A stretch of DNA of 64,000 nt from Pedobacter helvus (GTDB lineage Bacteria > Bacteroidota > Bacteroidia > Sphingobacteriales > Sphingobacteriaceae): assembly GCF_005925325.1 (NCBI RefSeq), contig NZ_SRMP01000001.1, positions 930,001 to 994,000 on the forward strand. Direction: 5' to 3'. The position numbers and the translations under genes are program-made. The first letter of the stretch is position 1, and each line of letters starts with the position of its first letter. The notes under the pieces are model-generated. The model was not told the origin of the DNA. It saw nothing but the letters and a program-made list of their open reading frames with translations, and did not search any database. This document shows positions 49,917-62,461 of this stretch, piece by piece.

Positions 49917-50020
49917 AGTTAAAAGTAATAAGTTGTAAGTAGTAAGTTTAAAACTCGCTACTTACAATCATCAAGTTTGGGTTCTGAACTTATAACCTAA
50001 AACTTATAACTTACAAGGTA

Positions 50021-50266
50021 ATGAACTTAGAAATATTAACTCCAGATAAGAAAGTTTTCGAAGGCGAAGTAACTGCGGTTACTGTTCCTGGAACTTCTGG
50101 CTCTTTTCAAATCTTGAAAGACCACGCTCCTATCATCTCTACTTTAGAAGATGGGCAGGTGATTGTAAAAGAAGCAAAAGGTGAAAACATCTACAACATC
50201 AAAGGTGGTGTAGTAGAAGTACTGGATAATAAAATTATCGTTTTAGCTGAAGCTGTTGTAGCTTAA
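50021..50266 (+). CDS. atpC: F1F0 ATP synthase subunit epsilon (short form)
   Basis: 81 residues, only the N-terminal beta-sandwich domain (LEILTPDKKVFEGEVTAVTVPGTSGSFQILKDHAPIISTLEDGQVIV); the C-terminal helical hairpin that inhibits the enzyme in E. coli is missing. Such short epsilon subunits are usual in Bacteroidetes. 104 bases after atpD, with repetitive AAGTTATAAGT-like sequence in between, and followed by a strong terminator. Confidence 0.94.
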   Translation: MNLEILTPDKKVFEGEVTAVTVPGTSGSFQILKDHAPIISTLEDGQVIVKEAKGENIYNIKGGVVEVLDNKIIVLAEAVVA

Positions 50267-50287
50267 GTTAAAGCTTACAAATTATTG

Positions 50288-50317
50288 AAAGCCCCGAAGT
50301 TAATTCGGGGCTTTTTT
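50288..50317 (+). terminator. Terminator after atpC
   Basis: Stem AAAGCCCCGAA / TTCGGGGCTTT, loop GTTAA, then a T-run (CTTTTTTG). About 20 bases past the atpC stop. Confidence 0.93.
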
Positions 50318-50333
50318 GTTTTTAAGCCCCCAA

Positions 50334-50440
50334 GTCATTGCGAGAGTTTATTCCGATAAATCGGAAAGGAACGACGAAGCAATCTTAAAGTAAATGGCTC
50401 TTTTATAAATTGTAAGATTGCTTTACAGAATAATCAAGAT
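50334..50440. repeat. GTCATTGCGAG...GAAGCAATCTTA-type dispersed repeat
   Basis: The text GTCATTGCGAG (50335-50345), GGAACGACGAAGCAATCTTA, then about 30 bases later the inverted form GTAAGATTGCTTT matches a dispersed palindromic element found in many unrelated bacteria (CATTGCGAG...CGAAGCAATC). The inner AGCAATCTTA / TAAGATTGCT forms a hairpin. Recognised from memory of its form; copy number not checked. Confidence 0.55.
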
Positions 50441-50553
50441 AAAAAACTCATATCTCCCGACATCGGAATCCGACTATTCACTAATTACCATACATCAACC
50501 CTAAGCACGAACTTTCTCTTTAACTTAGTTGATATCATTTAAACTCAAAGACA

Positions 50554-50883
50554 ATGAAAGAAGAATTTCTTAACCTTCCGGTTTTTAAAAATGAAGAGAC
50601 TAAACGTTTCGAATTAACTGTAGATGGACATATTGCCTTCATCGATTATGAAGAAGAAGACAAAATCATTAAGCTTATTCATACCGAAAGTCCAGAAGCA
50701 TTGGCAGGCAGAGGTGCAGCTACTGCATTAATCGAAAAAACACTAGTTTATTTGGAAGAAAACAATTATCAGCTTGTTCCATTATGCCCATTGGTGTTTG
50801 CCTATGTTAAAAGACATCCCGAATGGAAAAGATTGGTACCGAGTAAATATTTGAGACTTTTCGACAGGGAAGACATTGATTAA
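50554..50883 (+). CDS. GNAT-type N-acetyltransferase, YjdJ-like (PF14542)
   Basis: 109 residues, compact acetyltransferase-like fold: RFELTVDGHIAFIDYEEEDKIIKLIHTESPEALAGRGAATALIEKTLVYLEENNYQLVPLCPLVFAYVKRHPEWKRLV. The acetyl-CoA loop AGRGAATALI and the CPLVFAYVKRHPEW end are the family signature. Substrate unknown. Monocistronic. Confidence 0.9.
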   Translation: MKEEFLNLPVFKNEETKRFELTVDGHIAFIDYEEEDKIIKLIHTESPEALAGRGAATALIEKTLVYLEENNYQLVPLCPLVFAYVKRHPEWKRLVPSKYLRLFDREDID

Positions 50884-50939
50884 GCTAACCGATTTTGATG
50901 AGAATGGTTATCTTTAAAGTGAAACAACCTTAGTAAATA

Positions 50940-51158
50940 ATGCTAAATAAACAGAATATCCTAAACTTTATAAAATGGGCACTAGTGATATTCTTTTTAT
51001 TACTTATCGTACTCGATATGCCTCATATCAGACATAGCATCAACACACAAAGGCGAATCATGGTACTATTAGTGCTGAACATAATTTTGCTATACAAAAA
51101 CCGATATACTTGGACCATTGGAATTATATTATGCTCTTATGCCTGGTATTATCTATAG
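50940..51158 (+). CDS. Small membrane protein, possibly 5' part of a frameshifted gene
   Basis: 72 residues, three hydrophobic stretches (FIKWALVIFFLLLIVLDM, IMVLLVLNIILLY, WTIGIILCSYAWYYL). No family recognised. It overlaps the next open frame (51110-51376) in the -1 phase, which also encodes membrane segments; the two may be one gene broken by a single-base change. Confidence 0.5.
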   Translation: MLNKQNILNFIKWALVIFFLLLIVLDMPHIRHSINTQRRIMVLLVLNIILLYKNRYTWTIGIILCSYAWYYL

Positions 51159-51376
51159 CTATTGCCGGTAAATATTCCGTGTATGTCGCTTTTGATTTGA
51201 CTACTAGTTTAAAGCACATATTTCATACTTCAAACAGAACAACCATTGGTGCTATTATTTACTGTTTCCCTTTTTATTTCTACTTCATTTCTTTCATACT
51301 GTTTCTTACACCTATGGGAAGAGGGTGGTATGGCATTTCTTTTAAAAAGCCATCGAATAAACTCAACATTAATTAA
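51110..51376 (+). pseudogene. Possible 3' part of the same frameshifted membrane protein
   Basis: 88 residues in the frame -1 relative to the previous one, hydrophobic segments LLCLVLSIAIAG and TIGAIIYCFPFYFYFISFILFLTPMG and a polar tail GRGWYGISFKKPSNKLNIN. If the frames are joined near 51140-51160 a membrane protein of about 140 residues results. Separate overlapping genes, or no gene, cannot be excluded. Confidence 0.35.
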
Positions 51377-51665
51377 GCGTTTATTTTTCATCTTTTTCTG
51401 ACATTTCTCACTTTTAAGCAGAATTTTGCTCAAATTACAATGCAAGCATAACATTTATACCGAATACCGATTTCATTTTTGGTCTACTCTTCGCATTGTT
51501 TTGATGGAAAAACCCTATTGAAAACAAAATTATAAATCAAAAAATAAATAAAAAACAGAATTATATTCTAAATAAAATATTTTCATTTTGTCTATTGCTA
51601 TTTTTTGAACCAAATACTAAATTGGTATTTATAAAAACACTAGAAAAACAAAGAACTCAAGCGAG
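51377..51665. other. AT-rich region before the ilv leader
   Basis: No gene. A candidate promoter for the ilv leader lies at its end (see promoter at 51595-51625). Confidence 0.4.
51595..51625 (+). promoter_or_regulatory. Candidate promoter of the ilv-leu operon
   Basis: TTG (51595-51597), 20-base spacer, TAAATTGG (51618-51625), close to the Bacteroidetes -33/-7 pattern TTG-N19-TAnnTTTG. Transcription would begin near 51632, about 34 bases before the first leader peptide. Confidence 0.35.
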
Positions 51666-51767
51666 ATGAAATTAAGTATTCTAAATAGCAACATTAGCCT
51701 CTTCGTTAGCAACGATCTGCTGCTGCTTAATGTAGTACTGTATAAAAAATCCAAGGGTTCCTTATAA
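51666..51767 (+). CDS. Leu/Ile/Val-rich leader peptide of the ilv operon (attenuator 1)
   Basis: 33 codons starting ATGAAATTAAGTATTCTA and ending GGTTCCTTATAA. 14 of the 33 residues are Leu (9), Ile (2) or Val (3), with LLLL at 18-21 and VVL at 23-25; the sequence begins MKLSILNSNISLFVSND. Six of nine... in fact seven of the nine Leu codons are CTN (CTA, CTC, CTG x4, CTT), while neighbouring highly expressed genes use mostly TTA. It is followed 20 bases later by a terminator and then by ilvE. This is the classic layout of translation-dependent attenuation: starvation stalls the ribosome in the leader and the terminator does not form. Confidence 0.8.
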   Translation: MKLSILNSNISLFVSNDLLLLNVVLYKKSKGSL

Positions 51768-51786
51768 GATATTGATGTAAATAGCT

Positions 51787-51825
51787 AAAAGCGTCCCCTT
51801 CTTCAAAAAATGGGACGCTTTTTTT
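51787..51825 (+). terminator. Attenuator terminator before ilvE
   Basis: Stem AAAAGCGTCCC (51787-51797) / GGGACGCTTTT (51812-51822) with a 14-base loop and a run of seven T (51819-51825), 35 bases before ilvE. A weak alternative pairing AAGGG (51753-51757) with CCCTT (51796-51800) could act as antiterminator; only five base pairs are seen. Confidence 0.85.
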
Positions 51826-51859
51826 AAACAAAACAAAATTGAAATAATAGTAATTACAC

Positions 51860-52750
51860 ATGAACTATTACAATTCGAATACGATAATTTATCTAAATGG
51901 CCAACTTGTAAAAGCCAGCGAAGCGAAGACCGACTTATACGGTCAGTCGTTACACTATGGCTTTGCAGCTTTTGAGGGCATTAGGGCATACAAAACCCAC
52001 AATGCTACTCGTATTTTTAAGGCCAGAGAGCATTTCGAGAGGTTAAAACGCTCATGCGAATTAACAGGCATTCCATTCACTTGGAACATCGATGACTTGA
52101 TTAGACAAAGCTATCGACTGCTCGAACTGAATAATTTAAAAGATGCCTACATCCGTCCCTTGGTTTTTAGCGAACCTCAAATGACATTGGTTGCACCAGA
52201 GCACACTTCTATCATGCTTTGTGCATGGGAATGGGCTGCTTACCTTGGCGACAGACAACTGAAAGTTTGCATTTCTCCGTTTGAACGTCCAAATCCTAAA
52301 TCGATAAAGATTGAAGCTAAAATTAGCGGCAATTATGTGAACTCTATTTTAGCTACATCAGACGCTAAAAACAAAGGATTTGACGAAGCGATATTGTTAG
52401 ATGCTAATGGCTTTGTAGCTGAGGCACCTGGAGCAAATATCTTTATTGAAAAAGGGGGGAAACTTTATACCCCTGCTAAAGGAAACATTTTGCCTGGCAT
52501 CACTAGAGCTACCATGATAGAGCTTTGTAAAGTATTGGATATCGAAGTAATTGAAAAAGAGATTACAGTAGATTTCTTAAAAGAAGCAGATGGCTCATTT
52601 TTCTGCGGCACAGCGGTTGAAGTAGTAGGAATCCACACCATAGACGAAACCGTTTACAGACAAAGATGGAGAGATAGCATTGGGGCTACCTTACAAAGAG
52701 CGTATAAAAACCTAGTACTAGAGAAAGTGAACTACGAAGTGATCATTTAA
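51860..52750 (+). CDS. ilvE: Branched-chain amino acid aminotransferase
   Basis: 296 residues, fold-type IV PLP enzyme, last step in Val, Leu and Ile synthesis. Catalytic Lys154 in IEAKISGNYVNSILATSDAKNKGFDEAILLD; ALHYGFAAFEGIRAY at the N-terminus, GANIFIEKGGKLYTP and FFCGTAVEVVGI at the C-terminus. First structural gene of the ilv-leu operon, behind attenuator 1 and before attenuator 2. Confidence 0.96.
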   Translation: MNYYNSNTIIYLNGQLVKASEAKTDLYGQSLHYGFAAFEGIRAYKTHNATRIFKAREHFERLKRSCELTGIPFTWNIDDLIRQSYRLLELNNLKDAYIRPLVFSEPQMTLVAPEHTSIMLCAWEWAAYLGDRQLKVCISPFERPNPKSIKIEAKISGNYVNSILATSDAKNKGFDEAILLDANGFVAEAPGANIFIEKGGKLYTPAKGNILPGITRATMIELCKVLDIEVIEKEITVDFLKEADGSFFCGTAVEVVGIHTIDETVYRQRWRDSIGATLQRAYKNLVLEKVNYEVII

Positions 52751-52774
52751 TTTCTCTTCTTGATAATTTGTTAG

Positions 52775-52782
52775 TATGTTTG
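52775..52782 (+). promoter_or_regulatory. Candidate internal -7 element before the second ilv leader
   Basis: TATGTTTG fits TAnnTTTG exactly, 20 bases before the second leader ATG (52802). No TTG is seen 19 bases upstream. If used, the ilvD-leuD part could be transcribed separately. Confidence 0.3.
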
Positions 52783-52801
52783 GCTGAAAGAAAAACCACA
52801 C

Positions 52802-52876
52802 ATGCGTTTAAACACAGTCATTATTAACAACATTATCATTATTCCTCAGCAGAGGGAAGGCAATCGTTGTATATAA
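52802..52876 (+). CDS. Ile-rich leader peptide before ilvD (attenuator 2)
   Basis: 24 codons starting ATGCGTTTAAACACAGTC, with double stop TAATAA at 52874-52879. Peptide MRLNTVIINNIIIIPQQRE...: seven Ile, six of them as II and IIII (52820-52825 and 52832-52843). Downstream bases form a textbook set of alternative hairpins: region 1 TTCCTC (52842-52847) with region 2 GAGGGAA (52852-52858); region 2 GGGAAGGC (52854-52861) with region 3 GCCTCCC (52901-52907, one bulged A); region 3:4 is the terminator. A ribosome stalled on the Ile codons covers region 1 and frees region 2 to pair with 3, giving read-through. A ribosome at the stop codon masks region 2 and favours termination. Confidence 0.85.
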   Translation: MRLNTVIINNIIIIPQQREGNRCI

Positions 52877-52895
52877 TAAAAGAGATACTATAGCG

Positions 52896-52929
52896 AAACC
52901 GCCTCCCAAAAAGAGGCGGTTTTTTTTTT
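52896..52929 (+). terminator. Attenuator terminator between ilvE and ilvD
   Basis: Stem AAACCGCCTC (52896-52905) / GAGGCGGTTT (52913-52922), 7-base loop CCAAAAA, run of ten T (52920-52929), 30 bases before ilvD. Very strong for an intra-operon hairpin. Competing antiterminator as described for the leader. Confidence 0.93.
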
Positions 52930-52958
52930 GAATTGAACAGAACAACAACTTAATATAA

Positions 52959-54638
52959 ATGGAACTAAACAAATACAGTAAGACTTTTACACAAGACCCA
53001 ACACAACCCGCAGCACAAGCGATGCTTTACGGAATTGGTTTGACCGATGCCGATATGGCAAAAGCTCAAGTGGGCATTGCAAGTATGGGTTATGATGGCA
53101 ACACTTGTAACATGCACTTGAACGATTTAGCCAGCTTGGTTAAAAAAGGTGTTTGGGCCAATGATTTAGTCGGTCTTACTTTTAATACCATTGGTGTAAG
53201 TGATGGCATGAGCAACGGAACTGACGGTATGCGTTACTCTTTGGTTAGCCGTGATGTAATTGCGGATAGTATAGAAACCATTTGCGGTGGCCAGTATTAT
53301 GATGGTGTAATTGCCATCCCTGGTTGTGATAAAAATATGCCGGGGGCGATTATGGCCATGGCTCGTTTAGACCGTCCTTCGATTATGGTTTATGGTGGTA
53401 CTATTGCTCCAGGACATTACAAAGGAGAAGAGTTAAACATCGTTTCTGCTTTTGAAGCTTTAGGTCAGAAAATCTGTGGCAATTTATCTGATGAAGATTA
53501 CCAAGGCATCATTAAGCATACTTGTCCAGGGGCTGGTGCTTGCGGTGGTATGTACACAGCTAATACGATGGCTTCTGCAATTGAGGCCTTGGGAATGAGT
53601 TTGCCTTATTCATCATCAAATCCAGCAGTAAGCGATGAAAAGAAAAATGAGTGCTTAGATGCTGGAAAATATATCAAAGTATTATTAGAGAAAGATATCA
53701 AGCCTTCTGATATCATGACGAGAAAAGCATTTGAGAATGCCATTCGTTCGATTATCATCTTAGGCGGAAGTACCAATGCGGTATTACACTTTGTTGCGAT
53801 GGGTAAAGCTATTGGCGTAGAAATCACACAAGACGATTTTCAACGCATGAGCGATATCACTCCAGTTTTAGCAGATTTTAAACCAAGTGGTAAATACTTG
53901 ATGCAAGATTTACATCAATATGGCGGTGTGCCTGCAGTTTTAAAATATTTGTTAAACGAAGGATTATTACATGGCGATTGTTTAACGGTTACGGGTCAAA
54001 CTGTAGCTGAGAACTTGAAGGATGTAAAATCAATCATGGACTACAACCAACCAATTATCCAAAGATTAGATAATCCGATTAAAGCTACTGGTCACTTACA
54101 AATTTTATACGGAAACCTGGCAGAAAAAGGTTCTGTAGCTAAAATCTCTGGTAAAGAAGGCGAAAGATTTGAAGGTCCAGCTCGTGTTTTTGATGGTGAA
54201 AAAGATCTAGTAACTGGCATCTCCACTGGAAGAATTAAACCGGGCGATGTGGTAGTAATTAAAAACGAAGGTCCGGTTGGCGCACCAGGAATGCCTGAAA
54301 TGCTAAAACCTACTTCATTGATTATTGGCGCTGGTTTGGGTAAATCTATTGCATTAATTACTGATGGTCGTTTCTCAGGTGGTACTCACGGTTTTGTGGT
54401 AGGTCACATTACGCCAGAAGCCTACAAAGGAGGTTTAATTGGTTTGGTAGAAGATGATGACATCATTGAAATTGATGCCGTAAATAACAAAATTAACCTA
54501 AAAGTAAGCGATGAAGTAATTGCTGAACGTAGAGCGAGATGGCAACAACCAAAACTGAAAGTCACCAAGGGCGTATTGTTTAAATATGCCAAAACAGTAA
54601 CCGATGCGGCTGGAGGTTGTGTAACCGACGAAGCCTAA
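52959..54638 (+). CDS. ilvD: Dihydroxy-acid dehydratase
   Basis: 559 residues, Fe-S enzyme of the Val/Ile pathway. Cluster and active-site motifs GCDKNMPG and [18 protein letters not shown], and [15 protein letters not shown] at the C-terminal part. Length is normal. It lies directly behind the second attenuator, with ilvB 44 bases downstream. Confidence 0.97.
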
Positions 54639-54682
54639 CAATTAACCTAAACCGAAAACTTCCATTCATAAAATATAGAACC

Positions 54683-56425
54683 ATGGAAACTTTACAAGAT
54701 ACAGCCACGAAAAAGGCGACAACCAGCTCCCCTACCTTTAAAGGTTCGGGCTCGCAAATGTTGTTAAATGCACTTATTGAGGAGGGCGTTAGTACCATTT
54801 TTGGCTACCCAGGTGGTGCAATTATGCCTATTTACGATGCACTTTACGATTATGCAGACAAGCTAGAACATATTTTGGTACGCCATGAGCAAGGTGGTAT
54901 TCACGCCGCTCAAGGCTATGCCCGCACCAGCGGAAAAGTGGGTGTCGCTTTTGCCACGAGCGGTCCAGGTGCAACCAACTTGGTAACCGGTTTAGCCGAT
55001 GCACAAATAGACAGTACGCCTTTGGTTTGTATCACCGGACAAGTATTTGCACACCTTTTGGGTACAGATGCTTTCCAGGAAACTGATGTGATTAACATTA
55101 CTACACCGGTAACCAAATGGAACTATCAAATTACCGATGCAAAAGAAATCCCTGAAGTGCTAGCAAAAGCATTTTATATAGCTAAAAGTGGCAGACCAGG
55201 TCCTGTTTTGATTGACATTACTAAAAATGCACAATTACAAATTGAAGAATTTGAAGCTTACGTAAAATGTAACCATATCCGTAGCTACAGACCTAAACCT
55301 AAAGTTAGGGTTGAGTTTATTGAAGAAGCTGCAAAACTTATCAACAGTGCGCAAAAACCATTTGTGTTATTTGGTCAAGGGGTGATTTTAGGAAATGCGG
55401 AGAAAGAATTCAAAGCATTTATTGAAAAAACTGGCATTCCTGCAGCTTGGACCATCATGGGTGAAGGTGCTATTCCAACTGACCATCCATTAAATGTAGG
55501 GATGTTGGGAATGCATGGCAACTACGGACCAAACGTATTAACCAACGAAGCGGATGTCATTATCGCTATCGGTATGCGTTTTGATGACCGTGTAACTGGT
55601 CGTTTGGATAAATATGCAAAGCAAGCTAAGATCGTTCATTTAGATATCGACCCAGCTGAAATTGACAAAAACGTTAAAGCTGAAGTGGGTGTTTGGGGCG
55701 ACTGTAAAGAGACACTTCCAATTTTAACCAACTTAGTAAAAGAAAATAAACACGAAGCTTGGGTTGCACTTTTCAGAGATTACAACCAACAAGAGATCGA
55801 TCAAGTCATTACGCCAGAGTTATACCCTGCTGGAGAAGAAATGACCATGGGCGAGGTATTACGCACTTTAAATGAGCTTACCGGTGGCGATGCAGTCATT
55901 GTTACGGATGTTGGTCAGCACCAAATGGTAGCTTGCCGTTATGCTAAATTTAACAAAACCCGTAGTAACGTTACTTCTGGTGGTTTAGGCACGATGGGCT
56001 TTGGCTTACCTGCCGCTATCGGCGCTAAATATGGTGCTCCAGAACGTACGGTAGTGGCCATTATCGGTGATGGTGGTTTCCAAATGACTCCACAGGAACT
56101 AGGAACCATTATGCAATTCGGTGCAGCAGTAAAGATTTTAATTTTAAACAACCAGTTCTTAGGAATGGTGCGCCAATGGCAACAGTTGTTCCACGATAAG
56201 CGCTATTCGTTTGTGAATATCACTAGCCCTGATTTTGTGGCTTTAGCTAAATCATACTACATCGAAGCTAGTAAAGTAGAGCAAAGAGCTGAACTTAAAA
56301 AGGCTTTGGAGACGATGATTAATCACGAAGGTTCGTACCTTTTAGAGGTAATGGTTGGCAAGGAAAATAACGTTTTCCCCATGGTACCACAAGGTTGCAG
56401 CGTAAGTGAAATTAGATTGAAATAA
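54683..56425 (+). CDS. ilvB: Acetolactate synthase large subunit
   Basis: 580 residues, TPP-dependent biosynthetic enzyme. Catalytic Glu in LVRHEQGGIHAAQGYARTSGKVGVAF, cofactor motif GDGGFQMTPQELGTIMQFGAAVKILILNN, FAD-binding middle domain. The ATG at 54683 is chosen; earlier in-frame codons overlap ilvD. Followed by the small subunit after a 79-base spacer filled by a CCCCTAAAGGGG repeat. Confidence 0.96.
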   Translation: METLQDTATKKATTSSPTFKGSGSQMLLNALIEEGVSTIFGYPGGAIMPIYDALYDYADKLEHILVRHEQGGIHAAQGYARTSGKVGVAFATSGPGATNLVTGLADAQIDSTPLVCITGQVFAHLLGTDAFQETDVINITTPVTKWNYQITDAKEIPEVLAKAFYIAKSGRPGPVLIDITKNAQLQIEEFEAYVKCNHIRSYRPKPKVRVEFIEEAAKLINSAQKPFVLFGQGVILGNAEKEFKAFIEKTGIPAAWTIMGEGAIPTDHPLNVGMLGMHGNYGPNVLTNEADVIIAIGMRFDDRVTGRLDKYAKQAKIVHLDIDPAEIDKNVKAEVGVWGDCKETLPILTNLVKENKHEAWVALFRDYNQQEIDQVITPELYPAGEEMTMGEVLRTLNELTGGDAVIVTDVGQHQMVACRYAKFNKTRSNVTSGGLGTMGFGLPAAIGAKYGAPERTVVAIIGDGGFQMTPQELGTIMQFGAAVKILILNNQFLGMVRQWQQLFHDKRYSFVNITSPDFVALAKSYYIEASKVEQRAELKKALETMINHEGSYLLEVMVGKENNVFPMVPQGCSVSEIRLK

Positions 56426-56426
56426 G

Positions 56427-56498
56427 AACCCCAACCCCTAAAGGGGCTTTGGATAAACGACATAAAATTAAACCTCCCATTTAGGGGACAAGAGGGGC
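56427..56498. repeat. CCCCTAAAGGGG palindromic repeat, copy A (ilvB-ilvN)
   Basis: Left arm CCCCAACCCCTAAAGGGGCT (from 56429), right arm CCCATTTAGGGGACAAGAGG (from 56476), about 25 bases between them. The right end GAGGGGC lies seven bases before the ilvN ATG and acts as a Shine-Dalgarno-like sequence. Confidence 0.8.
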
Positions 56499-56504
56499 AA
56501 AACA

Positions 56505-57140
56505 ATGAGTAACGACACCATAAAATATATCCCTGGAGATGCCAATTACGAAGGTAAACAGGACTTCACCATCACCGTTTATGCGGAAGATAGGGTTGGT
56601 TTATTGAACCGTATTTCGATTATATTTTCGAAAAGAAAAATCAACATCGACAGTTTAAACACTTCTCCTTCGGAGATTGCAGGCATCCACCGTTTCACGA
56701 TTTTAATTAACGAAAGTCATGAAGTTGTGAGAAAGTTAGCACGCCAGATTGAGAAACAAGTTGAAGTGTTGAAAGTGTACTTCAATACGGATAGCGAAGT
56801 GATTTGGCAAGAACTTGCCCTATACAAAGTATCTACGGAAGAGATTACCGAGAAAGTAACGGTAGAGCGTTTATTAAGACAATATGGCGCTACTGCGGTA
56901 GTGATTAGAAAAGATTATACTGTCTTTTCTGTAACTGGTCATAAAGAAGAAACTGATGCCTTGGTGAAAGCCCTTGAGCCCTATGAACTGATTGAATTTG
57001 TGAGAAGTGCAAGGGTAGCGATTATTAAAGACAGTGCTGGTTTCCACGAAAAACTAAAAGAATTTGAAGCGGAAGAACCAGGCGAAGAGCGGGTAGAAAA
57101 TGAGTTCTTGGATAAGGGCGATAAGATTTTTACGATGTAA
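56505..57140 (+). CDS. ilvN: Acetolactate synthase small subunit (ACT domain)
   Basis: 211 residues: N-terminal ACT domain (FTITVYAEDRVGLLNRISIIFSKRKINIDSLNTSPSEIAGIHRFTILI) and C-terminal ALS_ss_C domain (TVERLLRQYGATAVVIRKDYTVFSVTGHKEETDALVKALEPYELIEFVRSARVAI). Feedback regulatory subunit that senses valine. Larger than E. coli IlvN (96 aa), close to the IlvH type with a C-terminal acidic tail. Confidence 0.95.
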   Translation: MSNDTIKYIPGDANYEGKQDFTITVYAEDRVGLLNRISIIFSKRKINIDSLNTSPSEIAGIHRFTILINESHEVVRKLARQIEKQVEVLKVYFNTDSEVIWQELALYKVSTEEITEKVTVERLLRQYGATAVVIRKDYTVFSVTGHKEETDALVKALEPYELIEFVRSARVAIIKDSAGFHEKLKEFEAEEPGEERVENEFLDKGDKIFTM

Positions 57141-57526
57141 ATAGTCGGGAAGTCGGAAAAGACCGAAAAGTTAGAACGATTGAGATACCATAGCTTGCGG
57201 ACTTTTCGGACTTCGTAAACTAAACCCGATTGAAGCGGATGCCGATTTAAGCATAGCAGTTTGTTCCTTTCAATTGTATGCTTGCTTGTTTCACAGGTTT
57301 CATCGGCAGAAGCAAAAAGCGGGACTATAATAACCGAAGAGCAAGGACCATGCTTTACAAGAATAAAGAGCAAGGATTAAAGAGCAAAGAATAAAGACCA
57401 ATAGTATAATTATCGGTGAAATCACAAAATCTGTGTAATCAAACCGAAGGAAGAATTAAAAATTAACCAATAAAACAATAAATCAGAGGATACGCGAAAT
57501 GTGTATCACAAAAACTAAATAGAACA
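57141..57526. other. Long spacer ilvN-ilvC with repeat-like sequence
   Basis: 386 bases inside the operon, no gene. It begins with a long imperfect inverted repeat (GAAGTCGGAAAAGACCGAAA near 57149 and CGGACTTTTCGGACTTC near 57197), then a GC-rich stretch with AAAGCGGGACTATAATAACC near 57317, then an A/G-rich run of AAAGAGCAAGGATT-type tandem sequence (57355-57395). I could not find a leader peptide or terminator here. Confidence 0.5.
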
Positions 57527-59008
57527 ATGGCAAATTATTTTAACACATTACCACTTAGAGAAAAATTGAACCAATTAGGCGTATGCGATTTCATGGAAAA
57601 CGATGAGTTTTTGGATGGCGTAAACGCATTAAAAGGTAAAAAACTGGTAGTGGTAGGTTGTGGTGCTCAAGGTTTAAACCAAGGATTAAACTTGAGAGAC
57701 AGCGGATTGGACGTATCTTACGCCTTGCGTGAAGAAGCTATCGAACAAAAAAGAGATAGCTGGAAAAATGCGACGGATAACAATTTCAAAGTAGGTACTT
57801 ATGAAGAGTTGATTCCAACTGCTGACGTGGTAATTAACCTTACTCCCGACAAACAACATACTTCAGTGGTAAATGCAGTGATGCCGTTAATGAAACAAGG
57901 AGCTACCCTGCTTTACTCTCACGGTTTCAACATTGTAGAGGAAGGCATGCAAATCCGTAAAGACATTACCGTAATTATGGTGGCACCTAAATGCCCAGGC
58001 TCTGAAGTTAGAGCAGAATATTTAAGAGGTTTTGGTGTGCCTACTTTAATTGCTGTGCACCCTGAAAACGACCCTGAAGGTAAAGGTTTGGCACAAGCTA
58101 AAGCTTACTGTGTAGGTACTGGCGGTCACAGAGCTGGCGTTTTAAAATCGTCATTTGTGGCTGAGGTTAAATCTGACTTAATGGGTGAGCAAACGATATT
58201 ATGTGGTTTATTGCAAACAGGTTCTATCCTTTCCTTCGATAAAATGATTGAAAAAGGAATTGACGCTGGTTATGCTTCTAAATTAGTTCAATACGGTGTT
58301 GAAGTGATTACCGAAGCTTTGAAACACGGTGGCGTAAGCGGCATGATGGACCGTTTGAGCAATGTGGCTAAAATCAAAGCCTTCAAAATTTCTGAGGAAT
58401 TGAAAAACATCATGCGTCCGTTATTCCAAAAGCACCAAGACGATATCATGAGTGGTGAATTTTCAAGCACCATGATGGCTGACTGGGCTAACGGCGATGC
58501 TAACCTTTTGAAATGGAGAGCTGAAACGGGTGAAACTGCTTTTGAAAAAACACCTGCTGGTGACGTTAAAATTGGCGAGCAAGAGTACTTTGACAACTAT
58601 ACATTGATGGTAGCTTTTGTAAGAGCTGGTGTTGAATTGGCTTTTGAAACTATGGTGGAAGCGGGTATTAAACCAGAAAGTGCTTACTACGAGTCGTTAC
58701 ACGAAACGCCACTTATTGCTAACACCATTGCTCGTAAGAAATTATTCGAAATGAACCGTGTAATTTCTGATACCGCTGAATACGGTTGTTACTTATTTGA
58801 CCAAGCTTGCAAGCCTTTGTTAGCTGATTTCATGAAAACGGTGGATACTGATTTAGTTGGTAAAAACTTTAACGAGGGTAAAGATGGCTCGGTTGATAAT
58901 GCCGAATTAGTTGCGATCAACGAAATTTTACGTGACCACGAAGTAGAAGTTGTAGGTAGAAAATTGCGTAAAGCGATGACTGCCATGAAGTCGATTAAGA
59001 CTGCATAA
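57527..59008 (+). CDS. ilvC: Ketol-acid reductoisomerase (class II, long form)
   Basis: 493 residues, about 150 longer than class I enzymes, as in E. coli IlvC. N-terminal NADPH domain with [30 protein letters not shown], then [23 protein letters not shown] and [16 protein letters not shown], and duplicated C-terminal knotted domains ([22 protein letters not shown]). Its TAA stop is the first triplet of repeat copy B. Confidence 0.97.
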
Positions 59009-59136
59009 CCCCTAAATCCCCTAAAGGGGAATTTGGTAATGCTTTACTCAAATTCGTAGTGAAATTTGCATTTTTGCTACAAACAAAATAAACTCTATAC
59101 TAGCCCTCCCTTTTAGGGGAGGGTTGGGAGGGGTTA
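59006..59136. repeat. CCCCTAAAGGGG repeat, copy B (ilvC-leuC)
   Basis: Starts TAACCCCT with the ilvC stop (59006-59013) and ends AGGGGTTA (59129-59136), an 8-bp terminal inverted repeat; arm palindromes CCCCTAAAGGGG (about 59019-59029) and CCCTTTTAGGGGAGGG (near 59108-59123). 131 bp, the longest of four copies. Confidence 0.8.
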
Positions 59137-59158
59137 ACTAAAAATAATTTATAAAAAG

Positions 59159-60562
59159 ATGGCGAAAACATTAGTAGAAAAAATATGGGATGCACACGTA
59201 GTAAAACGTGAAGAAGGTTTTCCTGATATTTTATACATTGATACGCATTTAATTCACGAGGTTACTTCGCCTCAGGCTTTTGATGGCTTGAGAAAACGTG
59301 GCATAGGGCTTTTCCGTCCTAAACAAACCGTAGCTACTGCCGACCATAACGTACCTACTTTAAATCAGCACTTACCGATCAAAGAAGAGCTTTCGAGATA
59401 TCAGGTGGATATGTTGACCAAAAATTGTGCTGAGTTTGGTGTGGAGCTTTATGGTTTAGGCCATCCTTTTCAAGGTATCGTACACGTAATTGGCCCAGAG
59501 TTAGGCATTACCTTACCAGGAAAAACCATGGTTTGTGGCGATAGCCACACTTCTACACACGGTGCTTTTGGTGCTATTGCTTTTGGTATAGGAACATCGC
59601 AGGTGGAACAGGTTTTTGCAACACAATGTTTGCAACAATCGAAACCTAAAACCATGAAAATTGAAGTAAATGGTGAGTTGAAAAAAGGTGTGGGTGCCAA
59701 AGACATCATCCTTTATATCATCTCTAAAATTTCTGCTGCTGGCGGTACGGGTTACTTTGTAGAATTTGCTGGTTCGGCATTCCGTTCTTTAAGTATGGAA
59801 GGCCGTATGACGGTTTGCAACATGAGTATCGAAATGGGTGCTCGTGGTGGTTTAATTGCGCCAGACGAAACTACTTTCGAATACATTAAAGGCAGGGAGT
59901 TTGCGCCAAAAGGCGAGAAATGGGACGAGGCTTTAGCTTACTGGAAAACTTTGTACAGCGATGCTGATGCAAAATTTGATAGCGTGCTAACTTTCGATGC
60001 TGCTGACATTGCGCCAATGATTACCTACGGTACTAACCCTGGAATGGGTATTGGTATTACCGATCATATTCCTGCAACTGCTGCCCAACCAGAAACCGAG
60101 CAAACATCTTACAAAAAGGCTTTAGATTACATGGGCTTTGCTGATGACGAAAGTTTATTGGGCAAACCTGTGGATTATGTTTTCATTGGTAGTTGCACCA
60201 ACTCTCGTATTGAAGATTTACGTGCAGTAGCTGAGTTTGTGAAAGGTAAACAGAAAGCCGATAACGTGGAAGTTTGGATTGTTCCAGGCTCTAAGCAAGT
60301 AGAAGCTCAAGCGATAGCCGAAGGTTTAGATAAAGTATTTGAAGCTTCAGGTTTTCAATTACGTGAACCAGGTTGCTCAGCTTGTTTGGGAATGAACGAA
60401 GATAAAATTCCGGCAGGGAAATATTGTGTATCTACATCGAACAGGAATTTTGAAGGCCGACAAGGACCAAACGCCAGAACAATGCTAGCTAGTCCGTTAA
60501 CGGCTGCTGCTGCTGCTGTGACTGGTAAAATTACCGATGTTAGGGAGTTGTTAACCCCCTAA
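59159..60562 (+). CDS. leuC: 3-isopropylmalate dehydratase large subunit
   Basis: 467 residues. [4Fe-4S] ligands in [14 protein letters not shown] (one) and [12 protein letters not shown] (two); [25 protein letters not shown] typical of aconitase-like enzymes. Leu pathway, partner of LeuD (61862). The last codons (LTP) are read from the left arm of repeat copy C. Confidence 0.97.
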
Positions 60563-60661
60563 CCCCCTGAATGGGGAACTAAAACCTATAGTGTAAAATG
60601 TCTAACTCATTAACCATAAACGAAGTAAAGTCAATACCCCCCTTTAGGGGGTTGGGGGTTT
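60553..60661. repeat. CCCCTAAAGGGG repeat, copy C (leuC-monooxygenase)
   Basis: Left arm AACCCCCTAACCCCCTGAAT (from 60553) overlaps the end of leuC; right arm CCCCCTTTAGGGGGTTGGGG (from about 60638) runs through the beginning of the monooxygenase gene. It contains the start codon of that gene (60598), so it spans two coding ends. Confidence 0.75.
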
Positions 60662-60957
60662 TAGAAGTTGCCATATTAAATGTAATCCCAAATCTAACCG
60701 CAGAGTTTGAAACTGCTTTTGCGAAAGCCGAACGAATTATTGCGAGCATGAAAGGTTATGTTTCGCATCAGCTTCAAAAATGTATTGAAGATCCTGCCAA
60801 GTATATCCTATTGGTAAACTGGACAGATTTAGAAGCGCATACCGTAGGTTTCAGAGGCTCTGCCGAATATCAGGAATGGAAAGCTTTATTGCATCATTTT
60901 TATAACCCATTCCCAACGGTAGAACACTTTGAGATGGTAAAAGGTAGTAAGAGTTAA
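60598..60957 (+). CDS. Antibiotic biosynthesis monooxygenase (ABM) family protein with repeat-derived N-terminus
   Basis: 119 residues. From Leu22 on it is a typical ABM dimeric ferredoxin-like domain: LEVAILNVIPNLTAEFETAFAKAERIIASMKGYVSHQLQKCIEDPAKYILLVNWTDLEAHTVGFRGSAEYQEWKALLHHFYNP. The first 20 or so residues (MSNSLTINEVKSIPPFRGLG) come from repeat copy C; SIPPFRGLG is the palindromic arm translated. No other in-frame start precedes the conserved part. Function in the operon is unknown. Confidence 0.82.
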   Translation: MSNSLTINEVKSIPPFRGLGVLEVAILNVIPNLTAEFETAFAKAERIIASMKGYVSHQLQKCIEDPAKYILLVNWTDLEAHTVGFRGSAEYQEWKALLHHFYNPFPTVEHFEMVKGSKS

Positions 60958-61025
60958 TATAAATAACTTGGCGTATAAAAACTTAAATGTACTTATATGC
61001 CTTAAATGGTTAAAAAAACGAAATT

Positions 61026-61787
61026 ATGCCAGAAATACATTGGAACAGCACGCTCTACAACGAACAACATCGTTTCGTATCTGATTACGGAGCTGATGTA
61101 CTGCAATGGCTTAATGCCAAAGCAGGCGAAAACATTTTAGATGTAGGTTGTGGAACTGGTGATTTAGCTGCTAAAATACAGGAAAGCGGCGCCATAGTTT
61201 CAGGAATAGACGCTTCTGCTGATATGATTGAATTGGCGAAGAGAACCTATCCTACTATTTACTTCGAACAAAAAGATGCAGCTGCTTTAGATTACAGCCG
61301 CGAGTTTGATGCTGTATTTAGCAACGCAACCTTCCATTGGATTGAAAACCAAAAAGGATTGTTGCGTGGCATTTATAAAAGTTTGAAACACGGTGGCCGT
61401 TTAGTGGCAGAATTTGGCGGAAAGGGAAATGTGAAGTCGATTGTTGATGCAATAGACCAAGCTGCAAAAGAATTAGGATTAGAACACAGAGTGATTTCTA
61501 ATTTCTGGTTTTTCCCATCAATTAGTCATTACGCCACTTTATTGGAATCTACAGGCTTCGAAGCAGAACAAATTTGGCTATTCGACAGACCAACCAAGTT
61601 AGTTGGTGAAGATGGCATGTTAAATTGGATCAATCAATTTGCACAGCATGCTTTTGTAAACCTCAATGAGAAAGAAGCTAAAGCAGTAACAGAATTAGCG
61701 GTAAGCATCCTAAAACCTAACTATTTTAAAAACGGCGAATGGACTGCAGATTATAGAAGATTGAGGATAAAAGCGATTAAAAAGTAA
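61026..61787 (+). CDS. SAM-dependent methyltransferase (trans-aconitate methyltransferase-like)
   Basis: 253 residues. Motif I ILDVGCGTGDLAAKIQESGAIVSGIDASADMIELAK, then FDAVFSNATFHWIENQKGLLRGIYKSLKHGGRLVAEFGGKGN. Fold typical of Tam/UbiE-like enzymes. Placed between leuC and leuD, hence probably co-transcribed. In E. coli Tam methylates trans-aconitate; a role in detoxifying a dehydratase by-product is only inference. Confidence 0.85.
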   Translation: MPEIHWNSTLYNEQHRFVSDYGADVLQWLNAKAGENILDVGCGTGDLAAKIQESGAIVSGIDASADMIELAKRTYPTIYFEQKDAAALDYSREFDAVFSNATFHWIENQKGLLRGIYKSLKHGGRLVAEFGGKGNVKSIVDAIDQAAKELGLEHRVISNFWFFPSISHYATLLESTGFEAEQIWLFDRPTKLVGEDGMLNWINQFAQHAFVNLNEKEAKAVTELAVSILKPNYFKNGEWTADYRRLRIKAIKK

Positions 61788-61861
61788 CCCCAAACCCCTA
61801 AAGGGGCTTTGGAAAGAATAAAAACATTAATATAAATTTCCCCTTTAGGGGATTAAGGGGC
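61788..61861. repeat. CCCCTAAAGGGG repeat, copy D (methyltransferase-leuD)
   Basis: Fills the whole 74-base spacer: left CCCCAAACCCCTAAAGGGGC (from 61788, directly after the stop), right TTTCCCCTTTAGGGGATTAA (from 61837) ending GGGGC at the leuD ATG. The best-preserved copy with mirror-image halves; AAGGGGC directly abuts the start codon. Confidence 0.85.
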
Positions 61862-62461
61862 ATGAAAAAATTTGAAACATTAAGCTCGTCGGTGGTACCA
61901 TTATCGATTGAAAATATAGATACCGACCAAATCATTCCAGCGAGGTTTTTAAAAGCCACCACCCGTGAAGGCTTTGGTGAAAACCTATTCCGCGATTGGC
62001 GCTACAATGGCGACAATACACCTAAAGCAGATTTCGTATTGAACGATCCTACTTACAGCGGAAAGATATTGGTTGCAGGTAAGAACTTTGGTTGCGGTAG
62101 TAGTCGTGAGCACGCGGCTTGGGCCATTCAAGATGCTGGCTTTGATGTAGTCATAAGCAGTTTCTTTGCAGATATCTTTAAAGGGAATGCTCTAAATAAC
62201 GGCTTGTTACCAATTCAAGTGAGTGATGAATTTTTAGCGGCCATTTTTGCGCAAGTAGCTAAAGATCCAAAAGCTACATTAACAGTAAACTTAGAAGAGC
62301 AAACGGTAACCATCGAGGCTACTGGTGCTCAGGAAAGCTTTGAGATCAATCCTTATAAAAAATCATGTTTGATTAACGGTTACGATGATATCGATTTCGT
62401 TCGCAGCCAAACTGATTTGATTGAAGAATTTGAGAAAAACAAAGTTTTTAAATTCTACTAA
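61862..62461 (+). CDS. leuD: 3-isopropylmalate dehydratase small subunit
   Basis: 199 residues. Swivelling domain of isopropylmalate isomerase: [78 protein letters not shown]. Works with LeuC. leuA and leuB are not in the window and may lie further downstream. Confidence 0.96.

Follow-up and report, generated by a model that had tools for sequence, protein, structure and literature searches.

The spacer between ilvE and ilvD in the soil bacterium Pedobacter helvus very probably carries a ribosome-mediated transcription attenuator (52775–52929) of ilvDBNC-leuCD that answers mainly to charged tRNA-Ile. Positions refer to the window, the whole 64,000-nucleotide stretch that was analysed, and all features of the window given below lie on its plus strand. 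An earlier note on this DNA had read 52802–52929 as an Ile-sensing attenuator; conservation, covariation of the 1:2 helix and the placement of the codons support that reading, with the mechanism remaining putative. Attenuation of this sort is itself classical and of a known kind.

Anatomy and predicted folding of leader D

The unit, which we call leader D, contains a 24-codon ORF (MRLNTVIINNIIIIPQQREGNRCI, 52802–52876, ATG to TAA) with two Ile tracts, II at 52820–52825 and the control codons IIII at 52832–52843. Direct reading bore out the ORF, both tracts and the pairing segments described in the earlier note, and every codon of the two tracts is Ile in the window. Region 1 (TTCCTC, 52842–52847) can pair with 52852–52857, within region 2 (GAGGGAAGGC, 52852–52861), the 5' arm of the predicted antiterminator. 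Region 3 (AAACCGCCTCCC, 52896–52907), which includes GCCTCCC at 52901–52907, provides both the 3' arm of the antiterminator and the 5' arm of the terminator. Region 4 (GAGGCGGTTT plus a T run, 52913–52929) completes a predicted intrinsic terminator ahead of ilvD, the first structural gene it would control; the 3:4 stem (AAACCGCCTC/GAGGCGGTTT) spans 52896–52922, with ten T at 52920–52929. Regions 2 and 3 are separated by a central hairpin (about 52864–52895), which includes the leader D stop codon and can coexist with either 2:3 or 3:4. Translation of the ORF is putative, and direct reading found no Shine-Dalgarno-like stretch 5' of its ATG; Bacteroidota hardly use Shine-Dalgarno sites.

The predicted folding energy of 52790–52935 was –29.4 kcal/mol, compared to –19.4 ± 3.1 kcal/mol for 200 dinucleotide shuffles (z = –3.2), one of which matched the native value. 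The z-score was –5.2 for 52862–52930 and –4.3 for 52852–52915, from which most of region 4 was removed. Taken separately, the 1:2 hairpin had a predicted energy of –6.8 kcal/mol, 2:3 together with the central hairpin –16.9 kcal/mol and 3:4 –16.8 kcal/mol. The 2:3 pairing has the potential to compete with both 1:2 and 3:4.

The gene order is ilvE, leader D, ilvD, ilvB, ilvN, ilvC, leuC, a gene for an ABM-domain protein, a methyltransferase gene and leuD. The branched-chain aminotransferase gene ilvE (51860–52750) and the dihydroxy-acid dehydratase gene ilvD (52959–54638), the first gene after the unit, scored above the cut-offs of NCBIfam TIGR01122 and TIGR00110, respectively. Among the genes from ilvB to leuD (54677–62461), the start of ilvB was set at an in-frame ATG, and ilvN scored above one NCBIfam cut-off and below the other. 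A scan of 50000–62000 found no terminator-like sites on the plus strand after 52923. The gene run may be co-transcribed.

Ribosome position and control codons

We scanned ribosome positions along leader D with region 4 absent, assuming that the front edge of the ribosome lies 13 bases beyond the first base of the A-site codon. With the A site on codons up to 52826, 1:2 (~2.9 expected pairs) competed with 2:3 (~5.5 expected pairs). With the A site on the first three IIII codons, 1:2 dropped to 0 to 0.2 and 2:3 reached 7.0 expected pairs, in agreement with the earlier proposal that a stall in this tract would mask region 1. From the Gln codons on, 2:3 was 0. When region 4 was included, the equilibrium fold favoured the 3:4 terminator at every ribosome position. 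Since the terminator always wins at equilibrium, the switch would have to be kinetic and co-transcriptional.

The mechanism we propose would operate as follows. When Ile is sufficient, the ribosome would reach the stop codon within the central hairpin and cover region 2 or, alternatively, 1:2 would form once the ribosome is released; 3:4 would then form and transcription would end near 52929. When Ile is short, the ribosome would stall in Ile-Ile-Ile-Ile, covering region 1, and region 2 would pair with the nascent region 3, pre-empting the terminator so that ilvD and the genes beyond it are transcribed.

The control codons lie where a stalled ribosome would mask region 1 and leave region 2 free, and this placement recurs among relatives. 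We took the codons 13 to 27 bases 5' of region 2 as control codons in 117 leaders, from Pedobacter and from the other Bacteroidota described below. In leader D, 86% of control codons were Ile/Leu/Val compared to 26% of codons elsewhere, the leader ORFs having been selected for their Ile/Leu/Val content and not for the position of residues within the ORF. Ile accounted for 58% of leader D control codons (17% elsewhere), Leu for 14% and Val for 15%. The corresponding Ile/Leu/Val figures were 78% (54% Leu) versus 42% elsewhere in the leaders for leader E, which precedes ilvE, 92% (52% Ile, 38% Val) versus 42% for Chitinophagaceae and others, and 92% versus 36% for Chryseobacterium. In leader D, Ile/Leu/Val codons were common at distances of 4 to 12 codons 5' of region 2, and few or none occurred from 2 codons ahead of region 2 onward.

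Leader D is a variably present unit in Pedobacter

The closest relatives that bear a name are Pedobacter. Of 99 genomes in the genus set, ilvD was matched in 96, and the upstream region could be read in 95, among them the genome of the window. A detector that looked for an Ile/Leu/Val-rich short ORF plus a terminator found leader D before ilvD in 34 of these 95 and had no match among 475 shuffled ilvD upstream stretches. Leader D was lacking in 61 of the 95 genomes, which indicates that the unit is dispensable. Where it occurs, its Ile codons are conserved, as the earlier reading requires: each leader D has 3 to 8 Ile codons, with at least 5 in 33 of the 34. The leader peptide contains LNTVIINNII(I/L)IP in the window's clade (six genomes, L081–L086) and is a variant of MNxNTNIISNLIIVISQKRGGNRCV outside it.

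In all 34 genomes, the distance from the leader D terminator to ilvD is 60 to 93 bases. In 15 of them the gap between ilvE and ilvD is 867 to 960 bases long, and even there the unit keeps to ilvD. The gap was inspected in four of the 15 (L091, L103, L117, L119) and holds a gene that we take, from its appearance, to encode a SAM-dependent methyltransferase. A methyltransferase-like gap gene was also seen in L101, L112 and L126, genomes without leader D. On a quick ilvE tree, the distribution of leader D needed seven changes, and the well-supported branches alone forced four. Together with the perfect co-occurrence of ORF, terminator and the box described next, this suggests that the unit is gained or lost as a block.

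A promoter-like box precedes leader D

The sequence TATGTTTG at 52775–52782 resembles a –7 promoter box of the Bacteroidota TAnnTTTG type; in a flavobacterium, TAnnTTTG at –12 to –5 is the sigma-A box (PMC9723704). Within 450 nt 5' of ilvD, TATGTTTG was found in 34 of 34 genomes with leader D and in 0 of 61 without, and it lies just 5' of the ATG in the 34 aligned leader D sequences. In the window, the frequencies of TATGTTTG and TANNTTTG were at chance level, so that only the conservation of the box counts as evidence. Of the 28 aligned leaders that do not belong to the window's clade, 20 have TTTG 17 or 18 bases 5' of the box; at this –33 place it was missing in the other eight and in all six genomes of the clade.

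Judging from the position of the box, transcription would be expected to start near 52787, and leader D may thus have its own transcript besides read-through from ilvE. The earlier note had described the element as internal to an operon. It does sit between ilvE and ilvD, but the presence of the promoter-like box in front of it in 34 of 34 unit-bearing genomes argues that leader D is not simply a read-through element within one operon. In L003 and L117, the start predicted in this way falls ~2 bases 5' of the leader ATG, and the leader there may be nearly leaderless.

Covariation, shuffles and synonymous recoding

In an alignment of 33 leader D sequences, the 1:2 pairing proposed in the earlier note covaried: 98% of cells were paired compared to 90% in column shuffles, and changes on both sides of the helix were seen in 4 of 6 pairs. 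Cells with changes on both sides numbered 14 compared to 2.3 in shuffles, and none of 500 shuffles reached the covariation score, a result that is not a probability because the sequences are related. When the partner was offset by 1 to 3 columns, pairing fell to 58–77%.

The 2:3 helix was paired in 91% of cells of the same alignment. Taken together with the central helices, pairing was 92.6%, which within the genus did not exceed that of column shuffles (146 of 500 were as high). This largely reflects the invariance of most bases and the shifted register of the window's clade, which pairs GGGA-GGC with GCCTCCC where the others pair GAGGTGG with CCGCCTC. The 2:3 pairing of the earlier note held with limits: complementarity is kept in relatives while sequence and register shift, but covariation within the genus did not go beyond shuffles. 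The alignment test likewise detected no covariation in 3:4.

We compared 2:3 pairing across groups by duplexing the 5' arm of each terminator with the 59 bases upstream, against shuffles. The duplex beat shuffles at p < 0.05 in 27 of 31 leader D, 26 of 51 leader E and 26 of 31 other-Bacteroidota leaders. Complementarity between these segments recurs in quite unlike sequences, the Chryseobacterium pair GAAACGGC/GCCGTTTC being an example quite different from Pedobacter. When the peptide was held fixed by synonymous recoding, 2:3 was stronger than in the recoded sequences (p < 0.05) in 6 of 33 leader D (the window's own p = 0.03), 36 of 53 leader E, 2 of 19 leaders of Chitinophagaceae and others and 2 of 12 of Chryseobacterium. 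Leader D seldom passed because its Arg-Gly-Gly codons are G-rich and supply the complementarity themselves; judged by this sequence comparison, 2:3 is not separable from conservation of the peptide in most leader D. Recoding supports 2:3 in leader E and is neutral for leader D. Hairpins internal to the ORF beat recoding (p < 0.05) in 3 of 33 leader D, 17 of 53 leader E, 0 of 19 leaders of Chitinophagaceae and others and 2 of 12 of Chryseobacterium.

A second, Leu-rich leader precedes ilvE

The earlier note had reported one attenuator, between ilvE and ilvD. That element is present, but a second, Leu-rich candidate 5' of ilvE had been overlooked. This leader E has a 33-codon, Leu/Val-rich ORF (MKLSILNSNISLFVSNDLLLLNVVLYKKSKGSL, 51666–51767) that carries LLLL and VVL, followed by a predicted terminator (AAAAGCGTCCC/GGGACGCTTTT plus a T run, 51787–51822). 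All 85 Pedobacter that could be tested, having at least 160 bases upstream of ilvE, carry a leader ORF with a terminator there; ten other genomes, eight of them with leader D, had shorter upstream regions. The census gave 66 genomes when ORFs longer than 60 codons were excluded, and 85 when this limit was lifted and a lower terminator threshold applied. Run as a control on 425 shuffles and 87 coding stretches, this last detector had no match in either. Both leaders were present in 26 Pedobacter, which are all of the leader D genomes among the 85. The 2:3 pairing of the window's own leader E was weak (p = 0.086 compared to shuffles, z = –0.5). In the arrangement we propose, leader D would be the second of two checkpoints, with a Leu-rich attenuator that works in the same way ahead of ilvE.

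Alternative explanations

The specificity of leader D is likely to be chiefly for Ile, with mixed branched-chain input possible. A leader D that works by the same mechanism but responds to Ile, Leu and Val together, and not chiefly to Ile, would account for the Leu and Val among the control codons outside the window's clade (for example in IISNLIIVI), for the overall 58% Ile, 14% Leu and 15% Val, and for the mixing of Val with Ile in leaders of Chitinophagaceae and others (52% Ile, 38% Val). Against this, the tracts of the window's own leader D are all Ile, and the largest class of control codons is Ile in the D set, compared to Leu (54%) in the E set. On balance we regard sensing of all three as unlikely, and the codon composition as pointing to charged tRNA-Ile as the probable main input.

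Two further explanations dispense with the leader peptide as the sensor. Intergenic intrinsic terminators are common, and the hairpin might merely terminate ilvE transcription, with an unrelated ilvD promoter and an accidental short ORF. The promoter-like box, however, lies 5' of the hairpin, so that a transcript starting there would be terminated too; leader ORF, hairpin and box co-occur in 34 of 34 genomes, the 1:2 helix covaries, and in the 15 genomes with a long gap the hairpin adjoins ilvD and not ilvE. We therefore find this explanation very improbable. A structured region with a terminator ahead of an amino-acid gene would equally suit a riboswitch, a T-box or a protein-binding leader in which the ORF is secondary, an idea to which we give slightly less credence still. 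No Rfam family reached its gathering score in the window except a tRNA; the sub-threshold matches at leader D include the Thr, Phe and Trp leaders, among unrelated families; and the feature shared across groups is the codon tract at its distance from region 2, rather than any single conserved aptamer.

Comparison with known leaders

The enterobacterial ilvGMEDA, thr, his, leu and trp operons have attenuators, and Rfam includes leader families of this kind (RF00506 Thr, RF01859 Phe and RF00513 Trp leaders). Like these, leader D has a leader peptide with a run of regulatory codons, regions 1 to 4, a terminator with a U run and control codons over region 1. It differs from them in that it lies between ilvE and ilvD and has a promoter-like box of its own, in the stop-codon hairpin that parts regions 2 and 3, in scores below the Rfam gathering thresholds and in the lack of a Shine-Dalgarno-like stretch before its ATG. 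Assignment of leader D to a known Rfam family was rejected: in a search that included T-box and riboswitch families no family matched it at gathering score, and only weak matches appeared at E ≤ 5 (Thr_leader 23.4, Phe_leader 23.5 and Trp_leader 17.9 bits, compared to 55, 55 and 41 required).

Bacteroid-trp is a Trp-codon attenuator. This motif (RF01692, tabulated in PMC2864571) is, like leader D, a cis-regulatory candidate of Bacteroidetes; it differs in concerning tryptophan, and it had no gathering-score match here. In Corynebacterium, ilv operons are known to be attenuated (PMC10272879, PMC11857589); there the ilvBNC leader, or ilvB-II motif, likewise has a branched-chain-rich leader ORF and a terminator before an ilv operon; it differs in belonging to another phylum, in preceding another gene and in being a single leader at the operon head. 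The ilvD motif of Veillonella and the ilvB motif of Leptospira (PMC8632094) are also cis-regulatory RNA candidates situated ahead of ilv genes, ilvD in the first case, but both belong to other phyla and the former is described there as a weak riboswitch candidate, not a leader peptide. In Salmonella mgtCBR, as proposed here for Pedobacter ilv, two short leader ORFs in tandem attenuators are thought to control transcription into the operon (PMC3641672); there, in contrast, both precede the first gene, and the operon serves Mg2+ transport and virulence rather than amino-acid synthesis. A leucine-rich attenuator peptide has been reported in Staphylococcus (PMC5794164), as have, in Bacteroides thetaiotaomicron, short ORFs that resemble attenuation leaders (PMC7366714).

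The suggestion in the earlier note that such an element may be undescribed in a Bacteroidete holds to the extent that the literature searched, which covers the field in part, yielded no Bacteroidota ilv attenuator; an earlier comparative prediction may exist. It has to be tempered by the "strong clues" that leader-peptide attenuation acts ahead of the operons for amino-acid biosynthesis in Flavobacterium psychrophilum, of the same phylum, where the structured elements named include those of pheA and hisG and the main text names no ilv element (PMC9723704). For the predicted two-stage arrangement, with different codon tracts and a variably present inner promoter-leader unit, the literature searched offered no precedent.

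Related leaders elsewhere in Bacteroidota

On the whole we lean towards a broader picture in which Bacteroidota use serial attenuators with different amino-acid inputs. A Leu-responsive one would gate ilvE and read-through, a promoter-bearing Ile-responsive one would reset ilvDBNC-leuCD as a cassette subject to gain and loss in the ilvE–ilvD spacer, and at ilvA, ilvN and thrA related leaders would act across the phylum. If so, much of the control of branched-chain amino acids in Bacteroidota would rest on codon-reading leaders absent from Rfam, and the 26 Pedobacter with both leaders, beside relatives with the Leu-rich one only, would offer natural tests of split, two-checkpoint control. Such control would also be relevant to the question of how tightly transcription is coupled to translation in Bacteroidota.

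Outside Pedobacter we examined 75 ilvD loci (the best 80 matches minus five named Pedobacter), 25 of which had one or two leaders before ilvE or ilvD, 31 leaders in all. In many Chitinophagaceae and unclassified relatives the leader ends in VVVVIIPAxxGGG or close to it and pairs GGAGGTGG or GGAGGAGG with CCGCCTCC, near the Pedobacter leader D element. Six Chryseobacterium loci (L024, L025, L026, L033, L034, L046) have two complete leader-terminator units in series before ilvE. No leader D was found in the Sphingobacterium loci, where ilvE and ilvD are ~10 bases apart.

In a search of 395 genomes of the phylum with stricter filters and rough E-values, a covariance model built from 35 leaders had matches at E ≤ 0.01 in 112. 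We examined 30 loci, namely the 29 retrieved for the best matches plus the second match in the window's own genome, and in 24 of them the match lay before relatives of ilvE, ilvD, ilvA, ilvN or thrA. Two of these 24 loci (L152 and L180) were themselves the source of a query, and their genes were identified separately; in another, L184, the detector found no leader ORF. L152 is the own-genome match (E = 0.007; G000:C6:158433-158549, outside the window). It has an Ile/Thr-rich leader (MIFNSSIITTIIITGGEAIGSNLV) and a terminator directly before an aspartokinase/homoserine dehydrogenase-like gene, whose first 488 residues scored above the aspartokinase cut-off and below that for bifunctional aspartokinase/homoserine dehydrogenase. 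This arrangement resembles E. coli thrL.

Leaders like that of L152 also precede thrA relatives in L188 and L191. Ile-rich leaders such as MKNLNNIIITITIIAIQQ lie before ilvA or an ilvN-ilvA pair in L176, L177, L179–L182, L187, L190 and L192, all from a single further family (f4) within the same taxonomic class. In L175, L178 and L194, too, the ilv leader model had matches directly before genes, which, from the look of their starts, are presumably hisG.
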